From assembly GCA_015178975.1 (NCBI GenBank), contig WHVD01000160.1, positions 62,001-126,000 of the forward strand: 64,000 nucleotides of DNA, read 5' to 3'. The DNA comes from Hysterangium stoloniferum. Taxonomy: Eukaryota > Basidiomycota > Agaricomycetes > Hysterangiales > Hysterangiaceae. Shown in pieces: positions 1,205-36,868 of the stretch (its first letter is position 1; the number at the start of each line of letters is the position of its first letter). Made by a program: the position numbers and the translations under genes. Below the pieces are notes generated by a model. It did not search any database. It saw nothing but the letters and a program-made list of their open reading frames with translations, and was not told the origin of the DNA.

Positions 1205-1535
1205 CATGAGTTGGCATGTAATGCACTTCCTGGAGGAAAGAGGAGCATGATCAGAGCAGGACGAAGAGAGAAGGAATGGGTACACACACCAACTGGAGGA
1301 ATGAGAGAGGAGGCTGGAGGAAAGAGAGGAGGCCGATCAGAGGAGAACGAAGAGAGAAGGAAACAGTAGACACACTCACTGGATGAAAGAGAGAGGAGGC
1401 TGATCAGAGGAGGATGGAGGAAGAAAGAAACACAACATGCACTGGCTGGAGGAAAGAGAGAGGAGAGATGGAAATGGTACACGCACTCACTGGAGGAAAG
1501 AGAGATTGAGAAAACTGGTGACAGGCACAACATCT
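1205..1535 (-). repeat. Intron-like minisatellite, minus strand (third array)
   Basis: Read on the minus strand, this holds about six pyrimidine-rich units that end in CTCCAG or ATCCAG, carry three bases, then GTGCGT, GTGCAT or GTGTGT. The triplets include TGA, CCA, TTG and GAA. The unit sequence matches the array at 35316-36868. The TGA triplets and weak donors argue against coding. Open frames in this stretch are a by-product of base composition. Confidence 0.7.
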
Positions 1536-2338: not shown

Positions 2339-5300
2339 TCAATCTAATAATACATCTTTGTACACTATATTTGCAGTTCTCTTTGACTCCTTCTCTAATA
2401 ATATTTTAACCCTATTCCAACTTCTTCCCCTTGAAAGTCCCACATACAATTGCCCATGTCCAAACACAGCCATTCTCAAATCTAATCCTACTAATTTCAA
2501 AGATTGTCCCTGTGATTTGTTAATGATCATTGCAAATGCCAGTCGTACTGGAAACTGAACCCGATGAAGTTTAAAAGGGAGTTCATCATCATTTGTAATG
2601 ATTTTAATCCTTGAAATAAATGCCTCTTCCCCAGCACATGGTCCAGTTAAGATCCACACCAAAAGCAAATGATTTTCCATTTTCAGTAGTCGCAATTTTG
2701 TACCATTGAAAAGTCCCATCTGTGGATCTATGTTCCGTAGTAGCATTAAAGGTACTCCTGGCTTCATCTCAAGTTGACTTGGTGAAATTCCACCAAAGTT
2801 GAGACTATTTAAATATTCCACAGGATAGACTTCTGCCTCCATGTCACCCTCTGCAGTATCAGCACTGTGGTAGACACGACTCACTCCAGGGAATCTATTC
2901 AGAAGTTCTGAATTAATTTCTTCCACATCTGAATTCCTAGGACACAGAATAGCACGGTCTAAGAAGTCTCCATCTTGCCAATCTCTTTGGTCTCCATCCA
3001 CATGGATGTCTGGATATATCTCAGCAATTAGATCAGACATTTCTGGACCACAGATCATATGAGGAGGGATATCCATTGTATGATCTAAAGGCAAATCCTT
3101 TCCATGGCCTACATCTAAGAGCCACTGAGCAAACTGATCAACCCGCATATTCTTTTTCAAGAAAAGTACCTTGACATGGTTCCAGAGTTGAGATTTTTGA
3201 ATACATTCACCAATAATCTGTTCTTTAGAGGCACGTTGTACAACAGGCAAAGTCTGCTGGAAGTCACCTCCCCAGGCAACAGGAATGCCTCCAAAGGGGA
3301 GAGCATCTTTGTTTAATACATCCCTTAGAGTTCTGTCGACTGCCTCACATATGAAACGTGACTGCATTGGAACTTCATCCCAGATGATAAGGCATACTTG
3401 CTTCATGAGCTCTGCCTTTTCTGAGCCCTTTTTGATGTGACATGAGGAGTTCTTCTCACAGGGAACAGGAATTGCAAACATGCTATGAGAGGTGCAACCA
3501 CCTTTGAGAATCATTGATGCAATTCCAGATGAGGCGACAGAAAGGACAATGTAGCCTTTGACACGACATGCATGTGCAAGAGTATTCTATACAAAGGACT
3601 TGTCAGTGCCACCTGGACCATTGACAGAGAACATTTTGCCCTCCCACTGCTCATCAACTGCCTTGATGATAGTGTCAAAAGCAACTTGTTGTTCAGGATT
3701 GAACTTTTCAAGATTGGCCTGGGCACTGGCATGTTCATGATCAAGATTATAATTCTTCTGCTCCCTAATGAGATGATTGCCAATGAACTGATCCCAATTC
3801 TCAGTGATTTGTGGCATGGTTGGATAGAGTGAAAGAGACTTTCCGGAATAGTGGAGGATTTTATCAATCTGATAAAGACCAAAGTCATAAATTGTATTAG
3901 GTGCTGAATTGTCAATGTTATATGTAACCCTCAGGATCCAGTCCAAATCATCACAGATAAATTCTTTGAACTCATTCCAGAGTTCTTGGGGTTGTGCAGG
4001 GGAGGACATGGTCAAAATGATGACAAACAACCTGCGAAGTTGAAGGCCAGGCTGTATGTGACTGGCTTCTCTGAGACACATGTTCCACTGGCAGTCATCT
4101 TCAAGCAAACCACGTGCAACACAGGCTTGTTTAAATGTGGGATAGGTCTCACCCTGAAAAGTCCTTAGATTTTCAAATGAGGTAGCACCTTGGACGACAG
4201 CCAGCAAAGTACGGAGGTGGAATCTTTTACCACTGGCAGCATTGACAAAATGGATGTGTCCTATGGAAAAACCACTTTGACGTGGCTTCCATGATTTAGT
4301 CCTAGCTACAAATGTAAAATACTCAGGAAAATCCATATACAATGTGTCCCTGGCACGGTGACCATTGTAGCCAATGAGATCCTTGGCATTAGCTTCAAAA
4401 TAAGCCATTAGAGTTGTGCCAGCATGCTCTGCCCTTTGTAAAGCCTCAGCAGGACCTTGATCGGCATCAAAAATGACAGTGTTTTCCCCAGGGAGGTGGA
4501 CACGAAGTGCCATTACTGCAGGAACCTGGGTGTGGAGTTCATTGCACATTAATTGCCAGACAGACTCATGTGCACTAACATATCGTGCATCAAGATACTG
4601 TTTAATCTCATCTGGTGTCTTTCCAACCTCCATAGTTGTGCGATCAGGGCCCTTGTAGCAGTATTTATGCATGTACTTCATTGATCTATTGGTAAAGACC
4701 AACTCGACATTGATATGGCACTCAAAGGCGAGAAGCAAAATAGGAGAGTAAGGAACAACATATCTGTTGTCATATATGAACTTGGGAGTTTGATAAACCT
4801 TTCCATTGTTGGGACGAAGGTAGAATGTATAGCCTTCCTGATTGACAATGGTGGCTTCACACCAATCCTTTGGGAAGAATTTACCACATGTACCATTGGC
4901 CATACAGGCAGCATTTGGATGATGAAGACCACAGGGGCCATGGGTCATGAGTTGACCTACTAAATTAAATAGTCTGGGATGTGTTTCAGGATCTGGAAAA
5001 CAGGCAGAAATAATTGAATCGACATCTGCAGGTGTCCTTGGCTTATCCTGCTCCTCAAACCATATAAGACAGTGCATGTGTGGAAGACCCCACTTTTGGA
5101 ATTCAATGACATGGATATGTGCTACCGTTTTACCAAAGATATGGCCCTCTGTAATCATTTTCAGCATTTTAGCTTTTTTGATAGCAAAGACATGTGAGAC
5201 CAAATCAGGGCGATCAGCAGGGGTCTGGCCAGGAAGCAATTCATGGGTGACCTCCTCCCAATTAGGATTAGCCATCATGGTGATGAAGCAGCTGGCATTG

Positions 5301-7456
5301 CCATACTTGTGTGCAATTGCAAAAGAATTTTGCAGACTTTGCCTCATATCCCTTGAACTGCCAGTAAATGAAGAAGGGAGTATGACCCTCTGACCAATAC
5401 TATTGGGATTGATATCATCATTTGAAAAAGCATCAACAACCTGGTTGTAGAGTTCTGCACATATCCTTGGTTGATTTTGACTCAGAAACTTCAATCTGCT
5501 CTGTTCTGTGACTGCCCAGGCATCAACAATATACTGCTGGAATAGCTTTTGTGCATAAAAAATGGTTTTGGCTTCATTTGCTCTAAGAAATAGGTGATAG
5601 GCATAATATTCACATTGGGTCACCTTACGACGTTTGTCTTCCTCTTCAGCCTGTTCATGCTGCTGTACAGCCTGGGGCTGCCAATTGTTATTTGCATAGG
5701 GAATGTCCCATGACCAACCACGCTCACCCCTGGGAAAGAGCATGACATAATGAAGGGGTGTACAAATGTCCTTCATGCAATTGATGGAAGGGCCCCCCCT
5801 TCTCTGAACAATAATATCCCTTGGTCACCCTCACCTGTATCACCATCTCCAGGAACAATGACTGCAAGGTCATCACCAGTTGGAAGGTTGTACCATCGGG
5901 GATCAGTAAAAGCCTTGTAGCTCAGTCTAACATGTAACCTTGGAGTCTCTGCTTGTGTCCTCAATTGCTCATGTGCCTGGCAATAGAGTGCTATAAAAGG
6001 ATTATATTGCTCCATCATGTCCTGCAAGTCAGAAAAGGTTTGATTGTTTAGATTTTGATTTGCCCTGTGATTCTGCCTTATCTGAAATGCATTCCCCAGT
6101 GCATCCTCACGTGCCAGTGCAGGATCATGGATGTAAAGCTGAGCATAACTGGGTGATACATCTTCCCTGTATGGGATTAAGGAACCATGCTCATGATACA
6201 ATCCACCATGTATTTTAAAGACATATGGGCCCCAACCACCTTGCAAGACAGACTCATCCAATTTGACACCAAGTGATATAAATGCAAATGCATTATTATA
6301 TGCACAAATATTTTTGCAAAATTCCTTGGCATTGTCTGTATTATTCTCAAGAAGAGACTTTAAGGTATGAGGGACTGGTTCAAGTATTGGAAGGATGATC
6401 TTTCCTTGCTTGCAACACTTGCCAAACTTTGGTGTTGTCCGAGAGCTAGCTGACAGACGCTCATCCATCCAGTGTAAAGCTCCACAGTGTGAACACTGTA
6501 TGTTCATATGTCCTACATCATGTCTTGGAAACCTGGCCTCCACAACAGGCTGCCGTCCAATGGGTAATTGTGCAACAGGAAGTGGAAGTGGAGGGATGGC
6601 TGCAGGATCTGGAATGGCTGGGGTGGGGCATTGACTGCAGGTGGGGCAATAGCTGGGGGTGGGGCAAGTGGGAAAATGACTGGAGGTGGAGGAATAGCTG
6701 GGGGTGGGGCCAACTGTAGCTGTTGCTGTGCATTTGCTGCTGGATGAACAGGTGGATGGTGATGCTGTGGTAGTGCCAACTGAAAAATGGGTACTTGTCC
6801 CTGAAGTGGTGGAACTGCATTAATAGGTGACCATGGTGCAGTGGTACAGATGGATGACCAAGCTGTGAATGTGGTGCTGACTGTAAAATTGGTGGCTGCA
6901 GTTGAGCAGGTTGCTGTAATGGTGGATGATTCTGAATCTGAGCAGCTGCATTTGCCTGTGCACAATGCTGTTCAGCAGGTTGTCATAATGGTGGCAAAGT
7001 AGCCAACCAAGCACGCAAAGCAGCTACTGCAGCAGAACCAACTGTAGGCTGGATAGATTGATCTGCAGGTGCTAATTGGGCATTTGGGGCCTGTGGTTGA
7101 ACAGGTACATTTGCTGCTCGATGACCCCGCCCAAGAGGTTGTAATGGTGGCAAATTTGCATACTGATCCCATAATGCTGCCATGGCACTACTCCCCACTT
7201 GGGGTGCAGGAGGAATCAAACCTTGCTGAGGCAACTGTGGTGGTTGTGGAGCAGCCACAAATGGATCATCAGATGAACCTGCAACAACAGAGGCATGTGG
7301 GAATGGTTGAGGAGGGGGTGGTACATCATAATGAGCCACAGCTGAACATCGATGGTGGTCAGATGGTGATGTCATCTGCAAATGTGCCCTATGTCTGTTC
7401 CGCTCCTCCTCCTGATCACGCTCAGGGGTTCGATCCATAATAGTAGAAGAATACAC
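2339..7456 (-). pseudogene. Helitron Rep/helicase (RepHel), decayed
   Basis: This would be the replication initiator and 5'-3' helicase that moves the Helitron. On the minus strand the order is a Pro/Ala/Gln-rich N-terminus (7456-6513), a Cys-rich segment CSHCGALHWMDERL (about 6490), the Rep nuclease with the HUH-type motif PHMHCLIW (about 5080) and tyrosine motif KYMHKYCYKG (about 4670), then a Pif1-like helicase. Helicase motifs are Walker A GPGGTDKS (about 3610; family usually GPGGTGKT), Walker B IIWDEVPM (about 3390), GGDFQQTLPV (about 3260) and the C-terminal INKSQGQSL...YVGLSR (about 2530-2430). The frame is broken: there are frame changes in the N-terminal part and near 5780, and one in-frame stop after the Walker A motif (about 3586). 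Two long open blocks remain (729 and 391 codons). The element can no longer make the whole protein from one frame. Confidence 0.92.
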
Positions 7457-13367: not shown

Positions 13368-16300
13368 ATGTCGCAAGAACAGCTCGAAAATTCCAATAAT
13401 CTTGTAGGGAGTACTGATAACGATGGCATATTTCCCTTCTGACATCCAAATAGCACGTCGAACGTTTTCGAATTCTGGTTATTGGTAACGCCAACGCTGG
13501 AAAGACAACCATTCTGGAAAAGGTGTGCCATGCCTGGGGTCGCCAACCGATCTATATCAATGTAAGTGATCTGTGCATACCTAACTGCAATATCCCCAAT
13601 GCACGTTACTTTATTCTGTTCTTACTTACCTGATTTAGAGCGATTCAAAGTTAGAGCCGTCAGCCTTGGTCTGTGTCGGATCGACTAGGACCTCCAGTGG
13701 TGATGCACTCATGATAGTTTTTTTAGCGTGGAAACCACGAGATCGAACACCAGTTTCAATATCCAACTGCTCACGGCTTCGTATTTCATGACTCCTGCGG
13801 GTTCGAAGCGGGTGGTGCTGTCGAGCTGCAAAAAGTCACAAACTTTATCGAAAACCGAGCAAAGGGTGCGCAATTAAAGGATCAATTGCATACCATTTGG
13901 TGCGCTGAAGTTCCGCATTATTTTTCCAAATTCTGACGTTTGTGGTTCAGGTATTGTTTGCCAACTAGTAACGATAGAGGGATGACCAATGCAGAGATGC
14001 GTCTGTTTGAGAGCGGTACGGGAAATGGTCAGCGAGTGTCTGCGTCATGAGCTGAGTCTACTGATTACCATCCAAGTCCCCATTATCGCCATTTTCACGA
14101 AAATGGATGCTCTGGACCAGGAGGCACGCAACCAGTTAATGTGGAAGGATGATGATCTTTCTCGTGAAGAAATTGAAAAGCAAGTTCCCGGTCTCGCAGA
14201 GGACATATTTCAAAAGAAATATCTCAAACGACTCGCGGAAGTAAAACACAAGCCTCGGCATGTCGTCCGTCTCCGTGGTATGTTGCTTCTTGTCGATGAC
14301 ACAGCAACCTGTTCAGCCATACCCCTCAGACATGAACAAAGAGGGTACTAATTGTGATGAGCTGATCGTGAGAACCTCACAGGCCCTTGACGGTGACACT
14401 CTGAAACTGTTCTGTCTGTCGATATTGCGGATCGATATTGAATCTCGTATCAAAGAAGTTATCAACAGGTGAGCTACCCAGTTCTCCGCCGTCAAAGCAG
14501 ACTGCCAATACATGGATATCCAAGGATAATTATACCGCAGGTCCAAGGTGAGGCAGGATATGGCCAATGCAAGACAGACTGTTGAATTCATGGGTATCAT
14601 TTTGCTCAGCTGTTCTCGAATCGGGCACATTTTCCGAAGAACAAGCAAAATCCTTGTTCTGCAAGGTCATGCGTTGTTTTCCACACGTCTTGGTGCGAGA
14701 ATGTTGTAACTCCAGCTCTTACATATTTTGACGTTGGTAACAACAGCCTGTGAGTGACTCGAAGCTATCCTCTTATCATGTCATTCCCTGATATTTCATT
14801 GGTAGAGTGTGAGTGTCCATACATATGTTGACAATATCCGAGATTATTGATTCCAGTATCTTTGCCTTTTAGTTTGTGAGTTGATCTTGTCATTGTCATT
14901 GCCTCATCTAACTTAACATCATTGCTTCTTAGCAGAATGTAGGTCTATCTAGGGAAGTGTTATCATTATGTTGATCTCCACTTCTCCCTGCTCACCACAG
15001 AAAGTATGTAACACAATTCCACTGTAGTCTGCTTTTCTATTCACAATCATTGAATTATTTTATTATTATGTTTCCAGGTAGTGAGTATTTTAGCAAATAT
15101 GATTATAATACTGCTCAGGCTAGTTTATCATTCACTGCCCTCTTTTAGATTGTGAGTATGGCTAATTCATATTTTTGTTTGGCTTCTGACATTTTGACAG
15201 GTGGTAAGTTCTTGCTGTTGTTTCAAGGCTGTATAAACCTCTTCTGCTACATTGCCCATAGGATGTGAGTGTCTGCCCAGTTTTTCATATATTAGCACAT
15301 GACTGTTCTTGTAAACTACAATGTGGCAGATGGTAAGTCTTTTTGTACTGAATATTCCTTGAGTGGCTCAATGACTTGTGGATGACTCAGGATGTAAGTA
15401 TGCACATTCAATGCACAAATGATTGATGCACACTAATAAGAGGATGATCTAACTGGTTTTAAACTGCATAGAAAGTGAGTATGCTTATATGGTTATATTG
15501 AAGTTAACCTTATATATGATTTCCACATTCTGAAAAGAATGTAAATTCCCTCTGAGTTCTAATAAAATAGTCCATTCACTCACAGCAATTTTCTGCCTGC
15601 TTGGACTTGATAGGCTGTGAGTGGGAATATTATGTGGATTGGTTACCAAGAAATTCTAATACCACATTTGTAATGCTCAAACAGATTGATGTGAGTGTCA
15701 CTTCCAAACAACTAAGCATGCTTATTAAAAATTGTGTTTGAGATAGGCTGTAAGCACTGCCTATCCAAGGTTTGGAAACAAGGGTATGACACTTTGGTTT
15801 TATCTTACCAACAGACTGTATGTGTTGTCTGGTTAAATGTATTGTCAAAGTCTGGATAACAATGCTTATGCTCTTTGGTTGTGTGGATTACCTACAGAGA
15901 GTAAGTGTATCTGACTCTGTTGCATTCCATGGCTAAATGGGCTGTGGATAATTTAGGAGGTTAGTCATATACTCATTGTCATGTATACATATGTATTGAG
16001 TGGTGGATTGATTGGATGAAAATCAGAGTGTATGTGTTTTTCTTTGTGTACCAAATTGAAGAGGGGTACTCAATGGGATTTCTATCTGGGATTGTAGATG
16101 GTGAGGATTCTTTGCTTGCTTGTAATCAGAATTATTATCACAAACTAAACTGATATCTTGAACAATTGTGGGGGTGGTCATTATAGAATGTAAATTTTTC
16201 CGCCTTCTCCGCCCCTCATAGCTCATCTCCCTTGGCATGCTCTTCCCAGGTTGTGAGTTTCTGACTTTGTCCTCCTCATCTGCCCCTGATAGCTCAGCTC

Positions 16301-19300
16301 CCTTGGCATGCTCTTCCCAGGATGTGAGTTTCTGACTTTGTCCTCCTCATCTGCCCCTCATGGCTCATCTCCCTTGGCATGCTCTTCCCAGCTTGTGAGT
16401 TTCTGACTTTGTGCTCCTTGTCTGCCCCTCATGGCTCATCTCCCTTGGCACGCTCTTCCCAGGGAGTGAGTTTCTGACTTTGTCCTCTTTGTTTATCCCT
16501 CATGGCTCATCTTTCTTGGCATCCTCTTCCCAGGGAGTGAGTTTCTGACTTTGTCCTCCTTGTCTGTCCCTCATGGCTCATCTCCCCTGGCATACTCTTC
16601 CCAGCGAGTGAGTTTCTGACTTTGTCCTCCTCATCTGCCCCTGATAGCTCAGCTCCCTTGGCATGCTCTTCCCAGGATGTGAGTTTCTGACTTTGTCCTC
16701 CTCATCTGCCCCTCATGGTTCATCTCCCTTGGCATGCTCTTCCCAGCTTGTGAGTTTCTGACTTTGTGCTCCTTGTCTGCCCCTCATGGCTCATCTCCCT
16801 TGGCATGCTCTTCCCAGGGAGTGAGTTTCTGACTTTGTCCTCTTTGTTTATCCCTCATGGCTCATCTTTCTTGGCATCCTCTTCCCAGGGAGTGAGTTTC
16901 TGACTTTGTCCTCCTTGTCTGTCCCTCATGGCTCATTTCCCTTGGCATGCTCTTCCCAGCGAGTGAGTTTCTGACTTTGTCCTCCTCATCTGCCCCTGAT
17001 AGCTCAGCTCCCTTGGCATGCTCTTCCCAGGATGTGAGTTTCTGACTTTGTCCTCCTCATCTGCCCCTCATGGCTCATCTCCCTTGGCATGCTCTTCCCA
17101 GCTTGTGAGTTTCTGACTTTGTGCTCCTTGTCTGCCCCTCATGGCTCATCTCCCTTGGCATGCTCTTCCCAGGGAGTGAGTTTCTGACTTTGTCCTCCTT
17201 GTTTATCGCTCATGGCTCATCTCCCTTGGCATGCTCTTCCCAGCGAGTGAGTTTCTGACTTTGTGCTCCTTGTCTGCCCCTCATGGCTCATTTCCCTTGG
17301 CATGCTCTTCCCAGCGAGTGAGTTTCTGACTTTGTCCTCCTTGTCTGCCCCTCATGGCTCATCTCCCCTGGCATGCTCTTCCCAGCTTGTGAGTTTCTGA
17401 CTTTGTCCTTGTCTGCCCCTCATGGCTCATTTCCCTTGGCATGGCTTCCCAGGGAGTGAGTTTCTGACTTTGTCCTCATTGTCTGCCCCTCATGGCTCAT
17501 CTCCCTTGGCATGCTCTTCCCAGCTTGTGAGTTTCTGACTTTGTCCTCCTTGTCTGCCCCTCATGGCTCATCTCCCCTGGCATACTCTTCCCAGCTTGTG
17601 AGTTTCTGACTTTGTCCTCCTTGTCTGCCCCTCATGACTCATCTCCCTTGGCATGCTCTTCCCAGGGAGTGAGTTTATGACTTTGTCCTCCTTGTTTATC
17701 CCTCATGGCTCATCTCCATTGGCATGCTCTTCCCAGGGAGTGAGTTTCTGACTTTGTCCTCCTTGTCTGCCCCTCATGGCTCATCTCCCCTGGCATGCTC
17801 TTCCCAGCTTGTGAGTTTCTGACTTTGTCCTCCTTGTCTGCCCCTCATGGCTCATCTCCCCTGGCATGCTCTTCCCAGCTTGTGAGTTTCTGACTTTGTC
17901 CTCCTTGTCTGCACCTCAAGGCTCATCTCCCTTGGCATGCTCTTTCCAGCAAGTGAGTTTCTGACTTTGTCCTCCTTGTTTATCCCTCATGGCTCATCTC
18001 CCTTGGTATGCTCTTCCCAGCGAGTGAGTTTCTGACTTTGTCATCCTTGTCATGGCTCATTTCCCTTGGCATACTCTTCCCAGCTTGTGAGTTTCTGACT
18101 TTGTCCTGCTTGTTTATCCCTCATGGCTCATCTCCCTTGGTATGCTCTTCCCAGGTTGTGAGTTTCTGACTTTGTCCTCCTTGTCTGCCCCTCATGGCTC
18201 ATTTCCCTTGGCATACTCTTCCCAGCTTGTGAGTTTCTGACTTTGTCCTCCGTGTCTATCCCTCATGGCTCATCCTTGGCATGCTCTTCCCAGGAAGTGA
18301 GTTTCTGACTTTATTCTCCTTGTCTGCCCCTCATGGCTCATCTCCCTTGGCATGCTCTTCCCAGGAAGTGAGTTTCTGACTTTGTCCTCCTTGCCTGCCC
18401 CTCATGGCTCATTTCCCTTGGCATGCTCTTCCCAGCAAGTGAGTTTCTGATTTGTTCTCCTTGTCTATCCCTCATTGCTCATCTCCCTTGGCATGCTCTT
18501 CCCAGGATGTGTGTTTCTGATTTTGTCCTCCTTGTCTGCCCCTCATGGCTCATCTCCCTTGGCATGCTCTTCCAGGAAGTGAGTTTCTGACTGTGTCCTC
18601 CTTGCCTATCCCTCATGGCTCATCTCTCTTGGCATGCTCTTCCCAGCTTGTGAGTTTCTGACTTTGTCCTCCTTGTCTGCCCCTCATGGCTCATCTCCCT
18701 TGGCATGCTCTTCCCAGCTTGTGAGTTTCTGACTGTGTCCTCCTTGCCTATCCTTCATGGCTCATCTCCCTTGGCATGCTCTTCCCAGCAAGTGAGTTTC
18801 TGACTTTGTCCTCCTTGTCTACCCCTCATGGCTCATCCTTGGCATGCTCTTCCCAGCTTGTGAGTTTCTGACTTTGTCCTCCTTGTCTACCCCTCAAGGC
18901 TCATCTCCCTTGGCATGCTCTTCCCAGGAAGTGAGTTTCTGACTTTGTTCTCCTCGTCTGCCCCTCATGGCTCATCTCCCTCGGCATGCTCTTCCCAGCT
19001 TGTGAGTTTCTGACTTTGTCCTCCTTGTCTACCCCTCATGGCTCGTCTCCCTTGGCATGCTCTTCCCAGGGAGTGAGTTTCTGATTTGTTCTCCTTGTCT
19101 ATCCCTCATTGCTCATCTCCCTTGGCATGCTCTTCCCAGGATGTGTGTTTCTGATTTTGTCCTCCTTGTCTGCCCCTCAAAGCTCATCTCCCTTGGGATG
19201 CTCTTCCCAGCTTGTGAGTTTTTGACTTTGTCCTCCTTGTCTGCCCCTCATGGCTCATCTCCCTTGGCATGCTCTTCCCAGAGGGTGAGTTTCTGACTTT

Positions 19301-22010
19301 GTCCTCCTTGTCTACCCCTCATGGCTCATCTCCCTTGGCATGCTCTTCCCAGGAAGTGAGTTTCTGACTTTATTCTCCTCGTCTGCCCCTCATGGCTCAT
19401 CTCCCTCGGCATGCTCTTCCCAGCGAGTGAGTTTCTGACTTTGTCCTCCTTGTCTATCCCTCATGGCTCATCCTTGGCATGCTCTTCCCAGAGGGTGAGT
19501 TTCTGACTTTGTCCTCCTTGTCTGCCCCTCATGGCTCATCTCCCTTGGCATGCTCTTCCCAGCTTGTGAGTTTCTGACTTTGTCCTCTTTGTCTATCCCT
19601 CATGGCTCATCTCCCTTGGCATGCTCTTCCCAGCGAGTGAGTTTCTGACTTTGTCCTCCTTGTCTGCCCCTCATGGCTCATTTCCCTTGGCATGCTCTTC
19701 CCAGCTTGTGAGTTTCTGACTTTGTCCTCCTTGTCTGCCCCTCATGGCTCATCTCCCTTGGCATGCTCTTCCCAGGAAGTGAGTTTCTGACTTTGTTCTC
19801 CTTGTCTGCCCCTCATGGCTCATCTCCCTTGGCATGCTCTTCCCAGCGAGTGAGTTTCTGATTTTGTCCTCCTTGTCTGCCCCTCATGGCTCATCTCCCT
19901 TGGCATGCTCTTCCCAGCTTGTGAGTTTCTGACTTTGTCCTCCTTGTCTATCCCTCATGGCTCATCCTTGGCATGCTCTTCCCAGCTTGTGAGTTTCTGA
20001 CTTTGTCCTCCTTGTCTGCCCCTCATGGCTCATCTCCCTTGGCATGCTCTTCCCAGGGAGTGAGTTTCTGACTTTGTGCTCCTTGTTTATCCCTCATGGC
20101 TAATCTCCCTTGGCATGCTCTTCCCAGCTTGTGAGTTTCTGACTTTGTCCTCCTTGTCTACCCCTCATGGCTAATCTCCCTTTGCATGCTCTTCCCAGCT
20201 TGTGAGTTTCTGATTTGTTCTCCTTGTCTATCCCTCATTGCTCATCTCCCTTGGCATGCTCTTCCCAGGATGTGTGTTTCTGATTTTGTCCTCCTTGTCT
20301 GCCCCTCAAAGCTCATCTCCCTTGGGATGCTCTTCCCAGCTTGTGAGTTTTTGACTTTGTCCTCCTTGTCTGCCCCTCATGGCTCATCTCCCTTGGCATG
20401 CTCTTCCCAGGGAGTGAGTTTCTGACTTTGTCCTCCTTGTTTATCCCTCATGGCTAATCTTTCTTGGTGTGCTCTTCCCAGGAAGTGAGTTTCTGACTTT
20501 GTCCTCCTTGTCTACCCCTCATGGCTCATCTCCCTTGGCATGCTCTTCCCAGCGAGTGAGTTTCTGGCTTTGTCCTCCTTGTCTACCCCTCATGGCTCAT
20601 CTCCCTTGGCATGCTCTTCCCAGCGAGTGAGTTACTGATTTTGTCCTCCTTGTCTGCCCCTCATGGCTCATCTCCCTTGGCATGCTCTTCCCAGCTTGTG
20701 AGTTTCTGACTGTGTCCTCCTTGCCTATCCCTCATGGCTCATCTCCCTTGGCATGCTCTTCCCAGCAAGTGAGTTTCTGACTTTGTCCTCCTTGTTTATC
20801 CCTCATGGCTAATCTCCCTTGGCATGCTCTTCCCAGCTTGTGAGTTTCTGACTTTGTCCTCCTTGGTTTCTGACTTTGTACTCCTTGTCTGCCCCTCATG
20901 GCTCATCTCCCTTGGCATACTCTTCCCAGGAAGTGAGTTTCTGACTTTGTCCTCCTTGTCTGCCCCTCATGGCTCATTTCCCTTGGCATGCTCTTCCCAG
21001 GGAGTGAGTTTCTGACTTTGTCCTCCTTGTCTGCCCCTCATGGCTCATCTCCTTTGCATGCTCTTCCCAGCGAGTGAGTTTCTGGCTTTGTCCTCCTTGT
21101 CTGTCCCTCATGGCTCATTTCCCTTGGCATGCTCTTCCCAGGGAGTGAGTTTATGACTTTGTCCTCCTTGTCTGCCCCTCATGGCTTATCTCCTTTGGCA
21201 TACTCTTCCCAGGAAGTGAGTTTCTGACTTTGTCCTCCTTGTCTGCCCCTCATGGCTCATCTCCCTTGGCATGCTCTTCCCAGGAAGTGAGTTTCTGACT
21301 TTGTCCTTCTTGTCTATCCCTCATGGCTCATCTCCCTTGGCATGCTCTTTCCAGGATGTGAGTTTTTTATTTTTCTTCTCCCTGTTTCTGGCTTCTCTTC
21401 CTGGGTGTGGTGTGATCTCCCTATATTTTGGAATTGTTCCTATTTTCTATTTTTATTTTGTTCTTTTCTTTTACTGACAATTCTGTTGTCCTCATTCTTT
21501 TATTCCCTCAGGATTATTACTCCCAACAATGCTTTTTCTCCATCTTGACCCATCCAAGATATGAGGTGTGATAAACTTTGTGAATATATGGCTAATGGTT
21601 ACCATTGGTTTATTTAACCTCTCAGTCATGTTCTGGCTTGCCCCAATGCAAGGTTGTCTGGCTTAGCATTGGTACTTTGCACTTACTTGTTCAACTTGTT
21701 TCACCCTTGAACACATAATTCTTAGCTGCCATGGTCATCAGTTGCCATTTGCTTGATGCTTCACCAAATTTTGACTTTCAGGAGTCTGCAAAGTCTTATA
21801 TGGCTTCCTCAGCTCAGACTTTGGTAGATGATGTGAAGAAAGTATATGAGACAGCAATTTCTTGTGGTAATGGAGACAGTGATGTGATCTTTGAAATAAT
21901 GAAGAAGAATGTCCCAGGTATGTTTCTTCCCCTTGGATTATCTGCTGGTGATGATACTTACTTGACCACTTGTGGTTGTTGTAGATTTTGCCATTTCTAG
22001 TCAGTATTAG
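13368..22010 (+). CDS. P-loop GTPase with a 95-unit single-codon exon array (predicted 461 aa)
   Basis: Predicted cytosolic GTP-binding protein of a family common in mushroom-forming fungi; substrate and role are unknown. Normal exons: 13368-13403, 13454-13561, 13639-13668, 13727-13899, 13951-14015, 14077-14277, 14330-14468, 14501-14547, 14610-14692. Motifs: Walker A/G1 GNANAGKT (residues 23-30), LEPSA followed by RGNHEIEH before G3 DSCG (80-83), and G4 TKMD (145-148). The stretch ending CFPHVL (about 289-294) is also typical of the family. Then come 95 micro-exons (residues about 295-390), an 18-codon exon (21512-21565), a 136-base exon (21782-21917) and a last exon (21985-22010) ending TAG. 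The frame stays open across all predicted junctions. Weak points: the intron 14469-14500 is only 32 nt, some donors are unusual (GTCTGT at 13669, GTGCGC at 13900, GTGCGA at 14693), and one acceptor is AAG (14076). The intron 21566-21781 is long and could hide another exon. The start is the first ATG giving a phase-0 link to the P-loop exon. Confidence 0.75.
14747..16189 (+). other. Micro-exon array, diverged part: 22 micro-exons with unrelated introns
   Basis: Each unit reads acceptor (CAG, TAG or AAG), three bases, donor (mostly GTRAGT). Exon starts are 14747, 14806, 14873, 14936, 15001, 15078, 15149, 15201, 15262, 15330, 15391, 15472, 15538, 15614, 15685 (six bases, ATTGAT), 15747, 15815, 15898, 15957, 16027, 16098 and 16187. 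Introns are 49-86 nt and share no obvious sequence beyond splice signals. Spliced in order the codons read PSFNKVIVDMDKNAIDATRE and then S, M, N: a varied, helix-compatible peptide with no stop. Donors vary (GTGAGT, GTAGGT, GTATGT, GTAAGT, GTAAAT, GTTAGT, GTGAGG, GTAAGC), as expected for old independent introns. Confidence 0.8.
16190..21357 (+). repeat. Micro-exon array, homogenised part: 73 tandem intron-plus-codon units
   Basis: Units of about 70 bp run GTGAGTTTCTGACTTTGTCC ... CTCATGGCTCATCTCCC ... GCATGCTCTTCCCAG, then a triplet, then the next GTGAGT. I read 73 consecutive triplets (first 16250-16252, last 21355-21357): CTT 24, GGA 13, CGA 11, GAA 10, GAT 7, CAA 4, AGG 2, GTT 2. None is a stop and none differs from three bases. 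The encoded residues are Leu, Gly, Arg, Glu, Asp, Gln and Val. CTCAT about 25-30 nt before the acceptor fits the fungal branch-point form CTNAY. A few introns are shorter (CATCCTTGG deletions) and one near 20830-20930 carries a partial internal duplication. ORFs of up to 79 codons running through the units are unspliced shadows. Confidence 0.88.
21358..22010 (+). other. Conventional 3' exons closing the GTPase frame
   Basis: A 154-nt intron (21358-21511) with a strong pyrimidine tract and no internal AG-triplet-GT leads to an 18-codon exon ending HPRYE. After a 216-nt intron comes a 45-codon block with VDDVKKVYETAIS and VIFEIMKKNVP. A 67-nt intron (GTATGT...TTGTAG) precedes the last codons and TAG. 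The phases match the array (phase 0 into the first two exons, phase 1 into the last). This shows that the array lies inside the gene and not downstream of it. Confidence 0.7.
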
Positions 22011-23463: not shown

Positions 23464-24386
23464 CAGTGGCTTCCAATACTGTCCCAATGTTTTGGTAATT
23501 CTCAATAAATGCTTTATAACCTACCAAATAAATTTTCTAGAATAGTGAAAATATTCTCACATATACCTTAGCATACTAGCTTTGATATACCTAAATATTA
23601 CATAATATAGATGGATATTGGTGTCACAGTGAATATTAAAAAATGACCAATCATTGGGACAGTTTTGCAACCACTGTTTTTGAATCAGATATCTTGTTAT
23701 TCTAGTACTTTGTATGGCCTCCCTTAGCCTTTATTACAGCATCAAGTCTTCTGGGCATACTTTCTATCAGTTTCTGACACTCCTGAGGCTCAATCTTTGG
23801 CCATTCCACTTCCACCCTCTCCCATAATTCCCAAACTCCCTTGGTGGTGAGGAATATTTTTGTAGCTGTTTCTTCAGATGATTCCAAAGATGCTCTATGG
23901 GATTTAGATCAGGAGACTGTGCTGGCCAGTCTAATACCTGAATCTTTTTTTTAGTAAACCATTCTTGTGCCATCTTGGATGTATGTTTTGGATCATTATC
24001 TTGCTGGAAAATGGCCTTATCTTTTGGAATCTCCAAATCTCCAATGCTCTGGGACAAGTTCTGATCCAGGATCTCCACATATTGTGCAGAATCCATCCTT
24101 CCTTCAATCTCTTCAAGCCTTCCCACTCCATTCCAACCCATACAGCCCCAGACCATGGTATTTCCATCTCCATGCTTGACAGTAGGTTGGGTTATCCTAT
24201 CAGAAAGTGGTTCTCCAGTTTTCTTCCACACATATCAATGTCCATCTGACCCAATCCTATTGATTTTGGTCTCATCCACAATACCCTCTTCCAGTCATCC
24301 ACTGTCCAGTGTTGGTATTTGAGGGCAAAGCTTAACCTGGCCTTTCTACAGTGACTTACAAAATGTATCCAATGTTTTGCAGTTTC
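23464..24386 (-). mobile_element. Tc1/mariner element A, truncated
   Basis: The left terminus begins CAGTGGCTTCC after a TA (23462-23463). An inverted copy of the terminus lies further in (about 23650-23685, ending ACCACTG), so this end could fold into a hairpin. The transposase C-terminal two thirds lie at 23702-24231. The right terminus and transposase N-terminus are missing where gypsy sequence starts near 24387. Confidence 0.8.
23702..24231 (-). pseudogene. Tc1-type transposase, partial
   Basis: This is a DDE transposase that would cut and rejoin the Tc1 element. The segment keeps MVWGCMGWNGVGRL, the catalytic-Asp block FQQDNDPKHTS and the Glu block PAQSPDLNPIEHLW. The C-terminus ends KAKGGHTKY, as in the second Tc1 copy (43884-44903). 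The N-terminal helix-turn-helix and first Asp block are largely absent or degraded. A frameshift near 23870 separates the Glu block from the C-terminus. Not functional. Confidence 0.88.
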
Positions 24387-27444: not shown

Positions 27445-29490
27445 TCAATATATAGTAAAGTTGCTTGGTGGGCGGTGGGCGCTTTTAGGCGCCGCAGGCG
27501 CCCCAATGCGTGAGGGCGTGGAGCGCCCGAGCTTCTTCCCCATCAGGGTCGAAGAATCCCGATGAGGGCGCGTCAGCGCCCGAAGCTTCTGTGTGGGAGA
27601 GTCTGACTAATATTAGCGCCGGGAGGTTATTAGTCATCACGGGAGCAAATACAGGCATTCGCGGGAGCATTTCTACATTCGCGGGAGTATTCCATAGCGC
27701 CGCGGGAGTATTCCTGCACTCGCGGGAGTGTTTTTCGCGCCGCGGGAGTATTTTGTAACAGGCGCGGAAGTATTATGTGACACGCGGAAGTATTTTGTGA
27801 CTCGCGGAAGTATTTTGTGACTCGCGGAGGTATTTTGTAATGCCGCGGGAGTATTTTGACAGAGGCGGGAGTATTTCTCACATTCGTGGAGCCAGTTCAC
27901 ACGCCCTAATGGAGATATTTCCCACGAGACTCTCCCCCGCCGTTCACATAAGCATTTCCCGCACCGTTGACATAACCATTTCCCGCGCTGTTGACGTAAC
28001 CATTTCCCGCGCTGTTGACGTAACCGTTTCCCACGCTGCTCACAGGACCATTTCCCGCGCCCTTCATATCAGCATTTCCCGCGCTACACACGGGCACATT
28101 TCCCACGGCCTTCAATGGAGCCAGTTCTCCGGAGAAGGATTGGAGGTCTATAAGGATTTCCGGGAAAATCTCAATAAAATCATAATAATTCAAATAAAAT
28201 AGAATAAATGAAAATAAAATGTGATAAATCAAGAAGAAAAAATAATAATTGAAAATAAAATAAGATAATTCAAATTCAAATTCAATGAATCCAAAAACAA
28301 TATAATAAATCAGAATAAAATATAGTACATAAAATAAAATACAATAAATCAAAATAAGATACAGTAAATCAAAATGGGATACAATAAATTAAAATAAAAT
28401 ATATTAAATCAAAATAAAATACAATAAATCAAAATAAGATACTTAAAATGAAAATAAAATACATTAAGTTGAATGAATAATTCAGGTGACCACAATAATT
28501 CAATTCAACCATTGGAACTGTTATTTCTTTTGTAACCTTTGTCCTTTGTAACCATTGACTCCTTTGTACCTGTTGACTCCTTTTGTAACCTTTGACTCCT
28601 TTTGTAACCTTTGACTCCTTTTGTAACCGTTGATTCTGTTCTGCGACCGTTGATTCCGTTCTGCGACCGTTGATTCCGTTCTGCGACCGTTGATTCTGTT
28701 CTGCGACCGTTGATTCCGTTCTGCGACCGTTGATTCCGTTCTGCGACCGTTGATTCTGTTCTGCGACCGTTGATTCCGTTCTGCGACCGTTGATTCCGTT
28801 CTGCGACCGTTGATTCCGTTCTGCGACCGTTCTTTCCGTTCTGCGACCGTTCTTTCCGTTCTGCGACCGTTCTTTCCGTTCTGCGACCGTTCTTTCCGTT
28901 CTGCGACCGTTCTTTCCGTTCTGCGACCGTTCTTTCCGTTCTGCGACCGTTCTTTCCGTTCTGCGACCGTTCTTTCCGTTCTGCGACCGTTCTTTCCGTT
29001 CTGCGAACACTTTCCGTTCTGCGAACACTTTCCGTTCTGCGAACACTTTCCGTTCTGCGAACACTTTCCGTTCTGCGAACACTTTCCGTTCTGCGAACAC
29101 TTTCCGTTCTGCGAACACTTTCCGTTCTGCGAACACTTTCCGTTCTGCGAACACTTTCCGTTCTGCGAACACTTTCCGTTCTGCGAACACTTTCCGTTCT
29201 GCGAACACTTTCCGTTCTGCGAACACTTTCCGTTCTGCGAACACTTTCCGTTCTGCGAACACTTTCCGTTCTGCGAACACTTTCCGTTCTGCGAACACTT
29301 TCCGTTCTGCGAACACTTTCCGTTCTGCGAACACTTTCCGTTCAAACAATGAGTCTCAGAAATACTTAGAAGTTGTCGACGCGGGGGGGTTTGGGGGGCG
29401 AAGCCCCCCAACAAGCCGGAGCCCGCAGCGAAGTTGTGGGGCAGGTCACGAAGTGACCGCCCCGCAGCGTAGCAAGGGTTCCCAGGCTTG
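27445..29490 (+). mobile_element. Non-autonomous Helitron unit A
   Basis: It begins TCAATATATAGTAAAG after an A and ends GGCTTG. In order: GC-rich short hairpins (GGGCGC-GTCA-GCGCCC type, 27480-27600), GCGGGAGTATTTTGTGA repeats (27600-27900), reverse-sense CATTTCCCGCGC repeats (27910-28110), AT-rich AAAATAAAATAC filler (28180-28500), 20-bp repeats CGTTCTGCGACCGTTGATTC and a CTTT variant (28625-28990), 18-bp repeats GAACACTTTCCGTTCTGC (28995-29345), and the hairpin-rich 3' terminus. No gene; the 306- and 354-codon frames come from repeats. Confidence 0.7.
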
Positions 29491-32006
29491 TCAAATAAGT
29501 GAAAGGAGCATGGTGGGTGGTGGGCGTTTTTGGGCGCCGCAGGCCCTATTTGTGAGGGCGCGGAGCGCCCGAGCTTTTTCCCCAATTTGTGAGGGCGCGC
29601 AGCGCCCGAACCTCACTGTCTGACTAAGCTGAGGGCGCGTTAGCGCCCGAAGTCTCTTATTAGTCAGCGCGGGGGCATTTTTGCACACGCGGGAGTATTT
29701 AATGACGCCGCGGGAGCTTTTCTCACGGCGCGGGAGCATTTATGGTGCCGCGGGAGTATTGTTACAGGTGCTGGAGTGTTTTGTCACGTGCACGGAAGTA
29801 TTGTTACACGCGCGGGAGTATTTTGTAATGCCGCGGGAGTATTTGTCACATGTGCGGAACCATTTCACAGCCTAATGAAGACATTTCCCACGCACGACTT
29901 GCCAAGGAACATTTCCCGCGCCCTTCATGTAAGCATTTCCCACGTCATTTCCGGGGGAATTTCCCGCGCCCTTCACACAGTGATTTTCCATACCTTCGCG
30001 GAACTATTTCCCGCGCCCCTCAGGCATTTTCCACACATTTTGTGGAACTATTTCCCACGCCCCTGTAAAGCCATTTCCCCGGAGAAGGATGGTAATCCCC
30101 GGAGGAGGTCTACATGGTTTTCCGGGTTAATTAGAATAAAATACAATAAATCAAAATAACATAGGATAAAATACAAATAAAATAGGAAAAATCGAAATAA
30201 ATACAAAAAATAAAAGTAAAATGCTTAAAAATTGAATTAAACTAAAGCAAAATGTAATAAATCAAAATAGAATACAATAAATCAAAATCAAATACAATAA
30301 ATCAAAATAAAATGTTTAAAAATATAATAAAATAGAATAAACCAAAGTAAAATGTAATAAATCAGAATAAAATACAATGAGTCAAAATAAAATGCAATAA
30401 AACAAAACAAAACAAAACAAAATAAAATAAAATACAATAAATAACACTAAATTCAAATGAAGTACAATAAATTAAAGTAAAATATAATAAAATAAACTAA
30501 ATTACATAAAGTAAAATAAACTACAATACATGACAGTAAGATCAACTCAATGTTTGATTGAAACCATTGCTGCTTTTGAAACTATTGCACCTTTTGTCAC
30601 TATTGCACCTTTTGTCACTGTTGCACCTTTTGTAGCTGTCATTTCCATTTGTCACCGTTGTTTCCCTTTGTGAATGTCATTTCCATTTGTCACCATTGTT
30701 TCCATTTGTGAACATTGTTTCCCTTTGTGAATGTTGTCTCCCTTTGTGAACATTGTCTCCCTTTGTGAACGTTGTTTCCCTTTGTGAACGTTGTCTCCCT
30801 TTGTGAACGTTGTCTCCCTTTGTGAAAGTTGTGTCCCTTTGTGAACGTTGTTTCCCTTTGTGAACGTTGTTTCCCTTTGTGAATGTTGTTTCCCTTTGTG
30901 AACGTTGTTTCCCATTGTGAACGTTGTTTCCTTTTGTGACCGTTGTGTCCTTTTGTGACCGTTGATGCCTTGGTGAATGTTGTGTCCTTTTGTGAATGTT
31001 GTGTCCTTTTGTGAATGTTGTGTCCTTTTGTGAATGTTGTGTCCTTTTGTGAATGTTGTGTCCTTTTGTGAATGTTGTGTCCTTTTGTGAATGTTGTGTC
31101 CTTTTGTGACCGTTGTGTCCTTTTGTGACCATTGTGTCCTTTTGTGACCGTTGATGCCTTTGTTACCATTGATGCCTTGGTGAACGTTGTGTCCTTTTGT
31201 GAACGTTGTGTCCTTTTGTGACCGTTGATTCCGTTTGTGACCGTTGATTCCGTTTGTAACCGTTGATTCCGTTTGTAACCGTTCTCTGAACACTTTCCGT
31301 TCTAAGAATACTTTCCGTTCTAAGAACACTTTCCGTTCTAAGAACACTTTCCGTTCTAAGAACACTTTCCGTTCTAAGAACACTTTCCGTTCTAAGAACA
31401 CTTTCCGTTCTAAGAACACTTTCCGTTCTAAGAACACTTTCCGTTCTAAGAACACTTTCCGTTCTAAGAACACTTTCCGTTCTAAGAACACTTTCCGTTC
31501 TAAGAACACTTTCCGTTCTAAGAACACTTTCCGTTCTAAGAACACTTTCCGTTCTAAGAACACTTTCCGTTCTAAGAACACTTTCCGTTCTAAGAACACT
31601 TTCCGTTCTAAGAACACTTTCCGTTCTAAGAACACTTTCCGTTCTAAGAACACTTTCCGTTCTAAGAACACTTTCCGTTCTAAGAACACTTTCCGTTCTA
31701 AGAACACTTTCCGTTCTAAGAACACTTTCCGTTCTAAGAACACTTTCCGTTCTAAGAACACTTTCCGTTCTAAGAACACTTTCCGTTCTCTGAACACTTT
31801 CCGTTCTAAGAACACTTTCCGTTCTAAGAACACTTTCCGTTCTCTGAACACTTTCCGTTCAAACAATGAGTCTCAGAAATACTTAAAAGTTGTCGACGCG
31901 GGGGGGTTTGGGGGCGAAGCCCCCCAACAAGCTGGAGCCCGCAGCGAAGTTGTGGGGCCGGTCGCAAAGCGACCGCCCCGCAGCGTAGCAAGGGTTCCTA
32001 AGCTTG
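29491..32006 (+). mobile_element. Non-autonomous Helitron unit B
   Basis: Same layout as unit A, joined head to tail: it begins TCAAATAAGTGAAAGG and ends AAGCTTG. Hairpins lie at 29525-29670, GCGGGAG repeats to 29870, CATTTCCCGCGC repeats to 30080 and AT-rich filler to 30540. Then come 19-bp repeats around TGAACGTTGTTTCCCTTTG (30660-31280), about thirty 18-bp units AACACTTTCCGTTCTAAG (31285-31860) and the 3' terminus. The 404-codon minus frame (Glu-Arg-Lys-Val-Phe repeats) is a repeat artefact. Confidence 0.7.
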
Positions 32007-34363
32007 TCAATATATAGTAAAGTTGCTTGGTGGGTGGTGGGCGTTTTTAGGCGCCGAAGGCGCCCCAATGCGTGAGGGCGCGGAGCGCCCGAATTTTTCC
32101 CCAATTTGTGAGGGCGCGCAGCGCCCGAACCTCACTGTCTGACTAAGCTGAGGGCGCGTTAGCGCCCGAAGTCTCTTATTAGTCAGCCCGGGGGCATTTT
32201 TGCACACGCGGGAGTATTTAATGACGCCGCGGGAGCTTTTCTCACGGCGCGGGAGCATTTGTGACGCCGCGGGAGTATTCTGTGACGGGGGCGGAAGTAT
32301 TTCCTAACGCGCGGAGGTATTTTGTGACGCGCGGAAGTATTTGTCTACGCGCGGGAGTATTTCATTACGTGCGCGGAGGTATTTTTACATGCCCGGAAGT
32401 ATTATGTCATGTGCGCGGAGGTATTTTCCGGAACGCGCGGGAGTATTTGTCATGCGCGGAACCATTTCATACACCGGACACATTTCCCACGAACCTCCAG
32501 TAGAATTTCCCGCTTCATGTCAGCATTTCCCGCGCCGTTCACGTAAGCATTTCCCGCGCAGTTCTCATAGCCATTTCCCACGCCCTTCACCGGACCATTT
32601 CCCGCGCCCCTCAAGAACACATTCCCACGACCTTTCCGGGAGAATTGCCCGCCCCCTTTTGGGAGTCTTTCCCACGCCCTCACGGAAGCATTCGATAAAA
32701 TACAATAAATGAAAATAAAATGTTTAGAAATAAAGTAAAATAGAATAAATCGAAATAAAATACAGTAAATGAAAATAAAATGCTTCAAAATTACATAAAA
32801 TCGGAAAAATCAGAATAAAATACAATAAATCAAAATAAAATGTTTAAAAATAGAACAAAATAAATCAAAATAAAATGGAATAAATTGAAATACAATAAAA
32901 TATATCAAAATACAATACAATATATCATTTTTCCATTTTATTGAAATACAATAAAATATATCAAAATACAATACAATATATCAATGCTCTATCCACGCTC
33001 TATTAATGTTTCTTCAATGCTTATCAATTCTCAATCAATGCTATATCATATCAATGCTGTCTCAATTGTACATCAATTCCAGTTGAATCAACTCAATCTC
33101 TATTCAGTTACTCCATCTGAAACCATTGCTTTTTTGAAACCATTACTCCTTTTGCAACCATTGCTCCTTTTGAAACTGTTGCTCCTTTTGTACCCATTGT
33201 TCCTTTTGAAACCATTGTTCCATTTGTAATATTTCTTTCTGTCTTTTGTAATACCTTTTGTAATGGTTTCTGTTCTTTAAACAGTTTCCATTCTTACACT
33301 TTTGTCACTGTTGTTTTCTTTTGTCACTGTTGTTTTCTTTTGTAACTGTTGTTTTCCACTGTTGTTTTCTTTTGTGACCATTCTTTTCTTTTGTGACTGT
33401 TGTTTTCTTTTGTAACCATTGTTCTCTTTACCATTGTTTTCTTTTGTGACTATTATTTTCTTTTGTGACCTTTGTTTTCTTTTGTAACTGTTGTTTTCTT
33501 TTGTCACTGTTGTTTTCTTTTGTGACCATTCTTTTCTTTTGTGACCATTGTAAAGGGTGTTTCCTTTGTAATGTTTGTTTCCTTTTGTTTCTCTTTATCA
33601 CAATTGTTTCCTTTCATTTCGTGTTGTAACCATTGACTCCTTTGCAAACATTGACTCCTTTGTAACCATTGAGTTCCTTTGTAACCATTGAGTTCCTTTG
33701 TAACCGTTGATTCCTTTGTAACCGTTGATTCCTTTGTAACCATTGATTCCTTTGTAACCATTGATTCCTTTGTAACCATTGATTCCTTTGTAACCGGTGT
33801 TTTCTTTGTAACCATTGTTTCCTTCCTTTGTTGTTTCCTTCCTTTGTAATGGGTGTTTCCTTTATAACACTTTCCATTCCCTGAACACTTTCCATCTAAA
33901 GTGACTTTCCTTTCTAAGGTGACTTTCCGTTCTAACGTGACTTTCCGTTCTGACGTGACTTTCCGTTCTGACGTGACTTTCCGTTCTGACGTGACTTTCC
34001 GTTCTGACGTGACTTTCCGTTCTAACGTGACTTTCCGTTCTAACGTGACTTTCCGTTCTAACGTGACTTTCCGTTCTAACGTGACTTTCCGTTCTAACGA
34101 CTTTCCGTTCTAACGTGACTTTCCGTTCTAACGTGACTTTCCATTCTAATGTGACTTTCCGTTCTAACATGACTTTCCGTTCTAATGTGACTTCCATTCA
34201 AACAGCTTCCCTTTTAGAACAATGGGCCTCAGAAATACTTAAGAGTTGTTGATGCGGGGGGGTTTGGGGGGCGAAGCCCCCCAACAAGCCGGAGCCCGCA
34301 GCGAAGTTGTGGGGCAGGTCACGAAGTGACCGCCCCGCAGCGTAGCAAGGGTTCCCAGGCTTG
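32007..34363 (+). mobile_element. Non-autonomous Helitron unit C
   Basis: Begins TCAATATATAGTAAAG exactly like unit A and ends GGCTTG. It has the same order of parts: hairpins (32040-32190), GCGGGAGTATTT repeats (32200-32460), CATTTCCCGCGC repeats (32470-32690), AT-rich filler (32700-32990), TTTGTAACCATTG-type repeats (33290-33850), 18-bp units GTGACTTTCCGTTCTAAC (33890-34190) and the hairpin-rich 3' terminus. No gene. Confidence 0.7.
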
Positions 34364-35175: not shown

Positions 35176-35315
35176 GGGGACATGCCTGCCCGCCCACTCG
35201 GGCACAAACCGGCAAAGCGCGTTCCGTTTGCCAACGCGCGCACGCGCCGCGCCTGTTCGCAACGCGCTGTGCCCATTTGTGCCCGATTGGGCGTGCACCC
35301 TGCTCTGATCGGCCC

Positions 35316-36868
35316 CTCCAGTTGGTGCGTGTCCCCTTTCCTTCTCTCTTCATCCTCCTCTGATCGTCCTCATCTCTTTCCTCCAGGATGTGTGTCCCCT
35401 TTCCTTCTCTCTTTGTCCGTCTGTCTTTCCACCAGTTGGTGCGTGTCCCCTTTTCTTCTCTCTTCGTCCTCCTCTGATCGCCTCCTCTCTCTTTCCTCCA
35501 GGACGTGTGTATACCCTTTCTTTCTTTCTTCGTCCTCCACTCATGGGCCTCCTCTCTTTCCTCCAGGAAGTGCATGTACCCTTTCCTTCTCTCTTCGTCC
35601 TCCTCTGATGACCTCCTCTCTTTCCTCCAGCAAGTGCGTGTCCCCTTTCCTCCTCTCTTTGTTCTCCTCTGATCGTCCTCCTCTCCCTTTCCTCCAGCGA
35701 GTGCGTGTACCCTTTCCTTCTCTCTTTGCCCTCCTCTGATCGTCCTCCTCTCCCTTTCCTCCAGTGAGTGTGTGTACCCTTCCCCTCTCCCTTTTTTCTC
35801 CAGGAGGTGCGTGTACCCTGTCTTTCTCTCTTTGTCTTCTTCTGATCGTCCTCCTCTCTCTTTCCTCCAGGAGTTGCATGTAGCCTGTCTTTCTCCCTTT
35901 GTCCTCCTCTCTTTCCTCCAGGCGGTGGGTGTACAGTTTCCTTCTCTCTTCATCCTCCTCTGATTGGCCTCCTCTTTCCTCCAGCCAGTGTGTGTACTGT
36001 TTCCCTTTGTCCTCCTCTGATTGGCCTCCTCTCTTTCCTCCAGCCGGTGCGTCTACCATTTCCTTCTTCCTCTGTCCTGCGCTGATTTGCCTCCTCTCTC
36101 TTTCCTCCAGCCGGTGCGCGTTCGATTTCCCTCTCTCTGTCCTCTTCTGATTGGCCCCCTCTCTTTCCTCCAGCCGGTGCGTGTACTGCTCCTTCTCCCT
36201 TTGTCCTCCTCTCTCTTTCCTCCAGCCGGTGCGTGTACTGCTCCTTCTCCCCCTGTCCTCCTCTCTTTCCTCCAGCCGGTGCATGTACCGTTTCCTCCTC
36301 CCTTCGTCCTCCTCTGATCGGCCACCTCTCTCTTTCCTCCAGGAGGTGTGTACCGTTTCCTTCTCTCTTCGTCCCCCTCTCTCTTTTCTCCAGGAGGTCT
36401 GTGTCCCCTTTCCTCCTCCCTCCGTCCTGCTCTGATTGGCCTCCTCTCTCTTTCCTCCAGCGAGTGCGTGTACTATTTCCTCCTCTCTCCATCCTGCTCT
36501 GATCGGCCCTCTCTCTTTCCACCAGCGAGTGCGTGTACTATTTCCTTCTCTCTCTATCCTGCTCTGATCGGCCCTCTCTCTTCCCTCCAGGTGGTTTGTG
36601 CACCCTTTCCTTCTCTTTTCGTCCTGCCCTGATTGGCCTCCATTCTCTTTCCTCCAGCCAGTGTGTGTTCCTCTGATTGGCCTCCTCTCTTTCCTGCAGT
36701 GTGTCTACCATTTCCTTCTTCTACCATCCTCCTCTGACCAGCCCTCTCTTTCCTCCAGGTGGTGTGTGTACCCTTTCTTCAGTGAGTGTGTAGTATTTCC
36801 TTCTCTCTTTGTCCAGCTGCTGTGTGTACTGTTTCCTTCTTCCTCCGTCCCCCTCTGATCGGCCTCAA
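35316..36868 (+). repeat. Second intron-like array, about 26 units, AG-triplet-GT architecture
   Basis: Units of about 50-70 bp run CCCTTTCCTTCTCTCTTCGTC ... TCTTTCCTCCAG, then three bases, then GTGCGTGT or GTGTGTGT. Triplets in order include TTG, GAT, TTG, GAC, GAA, CAA, CGA, TGA, GAG, GCG, CCA, CCG (five in a row), GAG, CGA, GTG and a second TGA near 36781. Donors match the U1 consensus poorly (GTGCGT), one is TTGCAT, and one unit has a single base in place of three. Flanking sequence is Helitron repeat and no conventional exon was found. It is probably a non-coding relative of a micro-exon array. Confidence 0.75.

Follow-up and report, generated by a model that had tools for sequence, protein, structure and literature searches.

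A predicted serial array of 95 micro-exons in a GTPase-like gene of the fungus Hysterangium stoloniferum

Genes with many short exons of a length divisible by three are known from schistosomes, whose micro-exons mostly exceed a single codon in length and encode secreted parasite proteins. Exons of codon size (3 bp) have been described in the NACHT-ANK/NLR genes of the truffle Tuber melanosporum, a finding credited to Iotti et al. 2012 in the excerpts that we draw on here (PMC9815663, PMC3689799, PMC4986451, PMC10197012). Three of these four sources give their number in words, as "multiple," "tens" or "dozens," and alternative splicing of the 3-bp exons is described in the same excerpts as a means of diversifying the proteins. 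In an excerpt on duplicated lipS genes, two 3-nt exons are reported (PMC5639578). A further system of interest is the NWD family of Podospora anserina, whose WD-repeat arrays, according to portions of two of the sources above (PMC4986451, PMC9815663), show high internal repeat conservation.

Here we analyze a 64,000-nt stretch of DNA from Hysterangium stoloniferum (contig WHVD01000160.1; referred to below as the window). We propose that it contains, quite probably, a working fungal-type GTPase gene in which the segment following the GTPase domain is specified by 95 phase-0 micro-exons and grows by tandem duplication. The preliminary description of this locus had held that no gene built from serial single-codon exons was known; judging from the excerpts cited, that claim has to be withdrawn, as the truffle NACHT-ANK genes precede it (PMC9815663, PMC3689799, PMC4986451, PMC10197012).

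Gene model and micro-exon array

Re-parsing the sequence yielded a GTPase gene model of 106 exons and 460 amino acids that is open throughout and has GT-AG ends at all 105 introns (Table 1). The model had been put at 107 exons and about 461 residues; its openness stands, and both counts are lower by one in our model. The uncertain places are the normal 5' exons, where exon 8 can be reached through several joins that keep the frame open; for the model we chose the donor at 13669 (GTCTGT) and a single intron at 14469-14577. At the 3' end, the donor after 21565 (GTGTGA) is weak.

Table 1. Features of the window, by position and strand
Feature	Position	Strand	Remarks
Eight normal 5' exons, P-loop GTPase-like domain	13368..14692	+	Gene model; acceptor of the last exon uncertain
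Normal 5' exons 1-4	13368-13403, 13454-13561, 13639-13668, 13727-13899	+	
Normal 5' exons 5-8	13951-14027, 14077-14277, 14330-14468, 14578-14692	+	
Array intron 1	14693..14746	+	GTGCGA...CAG, 54 nt
Diverged array part	14747..16189	+	21 single-codon exons and one two-codon exon; introns almost unrelated
Transition intron	16190..16249	+	60 nt; 3' part matches the 71-bp unit, 5' part does not
Homogeneous array part	16250..21357	+	73 single-codon exons, 71-bp tandem array
Final array intron	21358..21511	+	154 nt
Three normal 3' exons	21512-21565, 21782-21917, 21985-22010	+	End in TAG
Second intron-like array	35285..36866	+	Unit CTTTCCTCCAG NNN GTGCGTGTACC; partly decayed
Six-anchor remnant of the second array family	1225..1510	-	
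Helitron protein, two adjoining ORFs	2339-5824	-	Helitron_like_N, PIF1 helicase
Two DDE_3 transposase ORFs and two reverse-transcriptase ORFs	23767-24234, 43884-44696, 38345-39070, 60434-61945	-, -, -, +	60434-61945 is a reverse-transcriptase ORF with RNase H

The translation of the first eight exons contains, as read by eye, GNANAGKT, DSCG and TKMD at the G1, G3 and G4 positions, which we take to be the motifs of a P-loop GTPase. A Pfam search of the 460-aa model gave no family above its curated cut-off; the best match was GTP_EFTU (E=0.0024; 17.9 bits, below the cut-off of 26.5), followed mostly by other P-loop families. NACHT was found under its cut-off of 26.7 (E=0.059, 13.6 bits), and the 17 Pfam matches with an E of up to 1 include no ankyrin family. 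A PDB search of the protein returned nothing significant (the best match, at E=0.38, was to an unrelated protein), and tblastn for a paralogue within the window matched only the gene itself. Neither the unit pattern nor the GTPase protein had a match in viral_contigs.

Between 14692 and 21512, the re-parse recovered the 95 consecutive micro-exons of the preliminary description, 94 of them 3 nt long and one 6 nt long. They are set among 96 introns (14693-21511), every one with GT and AG ends. The other particulars of that description held as well: the intron-like units are spaced by three bases with the six-base ATTGAT at 15685-15690 as the sole exception, the phase is 0 at both 14692 and 21512, and none of the 95 micro-exons is a stop codon. 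That no stop occurs says little, given that just one of the 95 starts with T. The sequence also agrees with the idea of a protein segment laid down one codon per exon, in which gain, loss or skipping of a unit would be neutral to the frame, given splicing and translation of the units. About 96 amino acids of the GTPase protein would come from the array; Leu, Gly, Arg and Glu are abundant in the predicted peptide, which has no periodicity above that of shuffles, a point against the reading proposed here.

The plain pattern AG-N3-GT occurs 138 times in 14600-21600, and 94 of these matches were kept. Nearly all of the 44 dropped matches (42) overlap a kept junction at an offset of 4 nt, the remaining 2 lying inside introns; 41 of the 42 overlapping matches would be stop triplets, 37 of them with the poor donors GTTTCT or GTTTAT. 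The parse pattern itself requires AG and GT, so a broken junction would appear as a merged intron. The sole merged intron in the parse (130 nt) is the site of the 6-nt exon, which would fit the clean removal of one intron between two codons. A stricter pattern, YAG-N(k)-GTRNG, was counted in 14740-16200 for every k from 0 to 40: k=3 gave 18 junctions and every other k at most 4. In 2000 dinucleotide shuffles of this region, k=3 junctions averaged 0.34 and never exceeded 5.

The micro-exons fall into two groups: 73 triplets belong to the tandem array, and the other 22 (the 6-mer and 21 triplets) have diverged introns. The triplets of the 71-bp array are of eight types, CTT (24), GGA (13), CGA (11), GAA (10), GAT (7), CAA (4), GTT (2) and AGG (2). 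Most G-ending synonymous codons are missing among the micro-exons of 14747-21357.

Introns, splice signals and codon variability

The 23 array introns up to 16249 have individual sequences and lengths of 49-86 nt. Pairwise local alignment of the cores of the first 22 gave a mean score of 13.0 against 12.4 for shuffled sequences, and a maximum of 26 against 21; on these scores, the similarity among the diverged 5' introns appears close to nil. In the homogeneous part (16250-21357), 60 of the 72 introns are 68 nt long and the other 12 have different lengths. Judged by this divergence, the part at 14747-16189 is the older one and the 71-bp tandem repeat is recent. In the course of that divergence the introns changed in sequence and length while every exon stayed at 3 or 6 nt, which argues for selection on splice sites and frame.

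Variability in the recent part is concentrated in the codons. When column entropies are calculated over 59 units whose introns are 68 nt long, the three exon positions rank first among the 71 (1.18, 1.58 and 1.17 bits); the next-highest column reaches 0.92 bits, and the intron columns average 0.19. In 27 context pairs, which differ at no more than three sites elsewhere, the triplets differ at a rate of 0.383 per site; the window with the next-highest rate, at 0.14, overlaps the triplet, and the best non-overlapping window has 0.123 (19 pairs). Codon order recurs best at lags of 37, 40 and 5. Alleles of the triplet and the intron are linked, with scores below those of the most strongly linked intron columns. 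This pattern would fit a few codon types reassorted by exchange within near-identical introns; taken alone, it cannot tell diversifying selection from shuffling.

As controls, both strands of 87 loci (15 viral and 72 prokaryote stretches) were scanned for AG-N3-GT chains. The eight longest chains listed, of 7 to 31 junctions each, had a constant triplet in six cases and a single variant in two; we took them for ordinary tandem repeats with constant or near-constant triplets and rejected them as codon arrays. A general three-unit architecture pattern matched 61 times in the window, and it picked out the 15 viral stretches and the 72 prokaryote stretches.

These observations bear on the alternative that survives best, namely that the array is a satellite within one giant intron, its units multiplied by unequal crossing-over and its triplets never present in mRNA. 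The 3' part is indeed a typical tandem repeat whose intron identity is highest at lag 5, a direct splice from 14692 to 21512 is likewise in frame, and a similar array with variable triplets sits among repeats, with no flanking exons to be seen (see below). A satellite, however, would be expected to have all unit columns homogenized alike, and this expectation failed: the triplet columns of the 3' part are not average but the most variable of the 71. Nor does it account for diverged 5' introns that lost their similarity and changed their length yet kept splice sites and 3- or 6-nt exons. We regard a satellite as unlikely. By our own estimate, chance would place only about one indel or unshared mutation at the junctions of the homogeneous part. 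Taken by itself, this half would neither establish function nor prove selection, and the case for the micro-exon array rests on the diverged part together with codon variability.

GTGAGT is the donor in 79 of the 96 array introns and CAG the acceptor in 85, and a branch-like CTNAY lies about 10-50 nt ahead of the AG in 86; among the first 23 array introns, the looser YTNAY is found at this distance in 20. Retention of an array intron would bring an in-frame stop in 89 of 96 cases, at the fourth codon in 70 of these; seven retained introns lack such a stop, and one of the seven (60 nt) also keeps the frame.

G is rare as the last base of a micro-exon (6 of 95). Within the diverged part it occupies this position in 4 of 22, compared with 8 of 10 normal exons (Fisher p=0.0015). 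This rarity suggests an extra constraint at the RNA level. It speaks for the alternative that the micro-exons are real but serve splicing, as steps in the recursive removal of a long intron, with 3-nt exons that are transient and mostly skipped. Recursive sites, however, need neither a length divisible by three nor variable codons, and the intron to be removed is long only through the array itself; we consider recursive splicing even less probable than a satellite. On the reading of the micro-exons as coding, some units may nonetheless be skipped, because 3 nt leave hardly any room for both splice complexes at once.

A second array and its surroundings

A second intron-like array occurs in two places in the window (Table 1). 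Its design is the same, with CTTTCCTCCAG, three variable bases and GTGCGTGTACC in succession, and its unit sequence differs from that of the GTPase array. Evidence for a common origin of the two unit sequences is weak, the score being matched by 3.25% of shuffles. Both copies start and end inside a unit, and no flanking exons were seen by eye at either.

Of the 24 junction columns in the larger copy, those of the triplet vary most (1.42, 1.88 and 1.39 bits; next 1.35), as calculated from 23 of its 28 anchors. Among the 34 acceptor-like anchors of the two places, 4 lack GT and 4 have TGA as the triplet, compared with none of 95 in the GTPase array (Fisher p=1.2e-5, for copies that are not independent and sets found by different patterns). 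The anchors of the second array were located by their acceptor only, and lost acceptors are thus uncounted. The two copies may derive from another array of this kind, as captured fragments in decay. If the second array was never coding, variable triplets are possible without translation, and this counts against our main reading of the GTPase array. The apparently non-coding second array also has variable triplets between conserved AG and GT, and this pattern alone is no proof of translation unless the second array is a fossil coding array.

Both copies lie near a Helitron-like terminus motif that also adjoins the Helitron-type helicase gene. The motif is found at 2158, near the Helitron ORFs, and again at 29429, 31945, 34302 and 37916. 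Between the repeated motifs, 27656-37818 is rich in minisatellites, most of them of 15 to 24 bp. The Helitron, Tc1/mariner-type and reverse-transcriptase genes of the window, like its short introns, agree with a fungal origin.

The least probable alternative is that the GTPase locus is a pseudogene, or was recently disabled, and preserves a once-working array: although its surroundings are rich in transposons and satellites and some joins require weak donors (GTCTGT, GTGTGA), the 460-codon model is fully open and all of its introns are GT-AG, unlike the second array.

Proposed mechanism and comparison with known systems

We conclude from the sequence that the micro-exons of the GTPase array are real, and that they would be spliced and translated. 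In the mechanism that we propose, the ordinary spliceosome would join 95 consecutive phase-0 micro-exons downstream of the GTPase domain, the short introns being removed probably not all at once. The array would grow as units of one codon plus one intron are duplicated in tandem and exchanged unequally, recently so in its 3' part. Near-identical introns would provide the recombination substrate, allowing codons to be added, lost and reshuffled in frame; exon skipping would remove whole codons, and intron retention would mostly bring a stop. The likely use is to vary the C-terminal segment through exchange at the DNA level and probably through alternative splicing too, as described for the truffle NACHT-ANK genes. 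Alternative use of the micro-exons would be part of this scheme, and by analogy with the truffle and Podospora receptor genes the varied segment may have a role in recognition.

If the codons are translated, a 460-aa protein would take more than 100 splicing events, the locus would test how the spliceosome deals with neighbouring introns that only three bases separate, and codon-by-codon exon arrays would extend beyond truffle NLR-type genes to another gene family. Annotation copes badly with 3-nt exons, which suggests that such genes may be overlooked. We can also imagine, though we lean slightly against it, that a cassette of near-identical introns as substrate and a codon as payload is a general fungal device for diversifying proteins one residue at a time, used by unrelated NTPase families, namely the NACHT-ANK genes of the truffle and the GTPase described here, and perhaps not confined to a single phylum; germ-line exchange together with alternative splicing in the cell would then produce a combinatorial recognition segment.

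A literature search of titles and abstract openings, covering few subscription journals, found no GTPase gene with such an array. The kind of array is already known; the gene family and the number of micro-exons are new as far as this search reaches. Schistosome micro-exon genes share with the GTPase array many short exons divisible by three, but their exons are mostly longer. Tandem duplication that carries splice signals along is another known source of new introns; the case compared here was a single event, whereas the GTPase gene has a serial array. In the NWD genes of Podospora, each repeat encodes an entire structural repeat, tens of residues long; a repeat of the GTPase array, in contrast, codes for one residue, and the remainder is intron. 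What the two have in common, to the extent that the excerpts describe the NWD WD-repeat arrays (PMC4986451, PMC9815663), is near-identical DNA repeats, a few hypervariable codons and reshuffling by unequal exchange.

The truffle NACHT-ANK genes, as portrayed in the excerpted reports, differ in their N-terminal part, which is GTPase-like here with no NACHT above cut-off and no ankyrin match, and in having tens or dozens of micro-exons rather than 95. Alternative splicing is reported for the truffle genes, whereas the GTPase array is known from its sequence. In several other respects the excerpts and our locus agree: both are fungal, with serial 3-bp exons (here, by sequence, 94 of 3 nt and one of 6 nt) in an array that follows an NTPase domain, lies in the part coding for the C-terminal recognition domain (a putative one at our locus) and is linked, here probably, to diversification.
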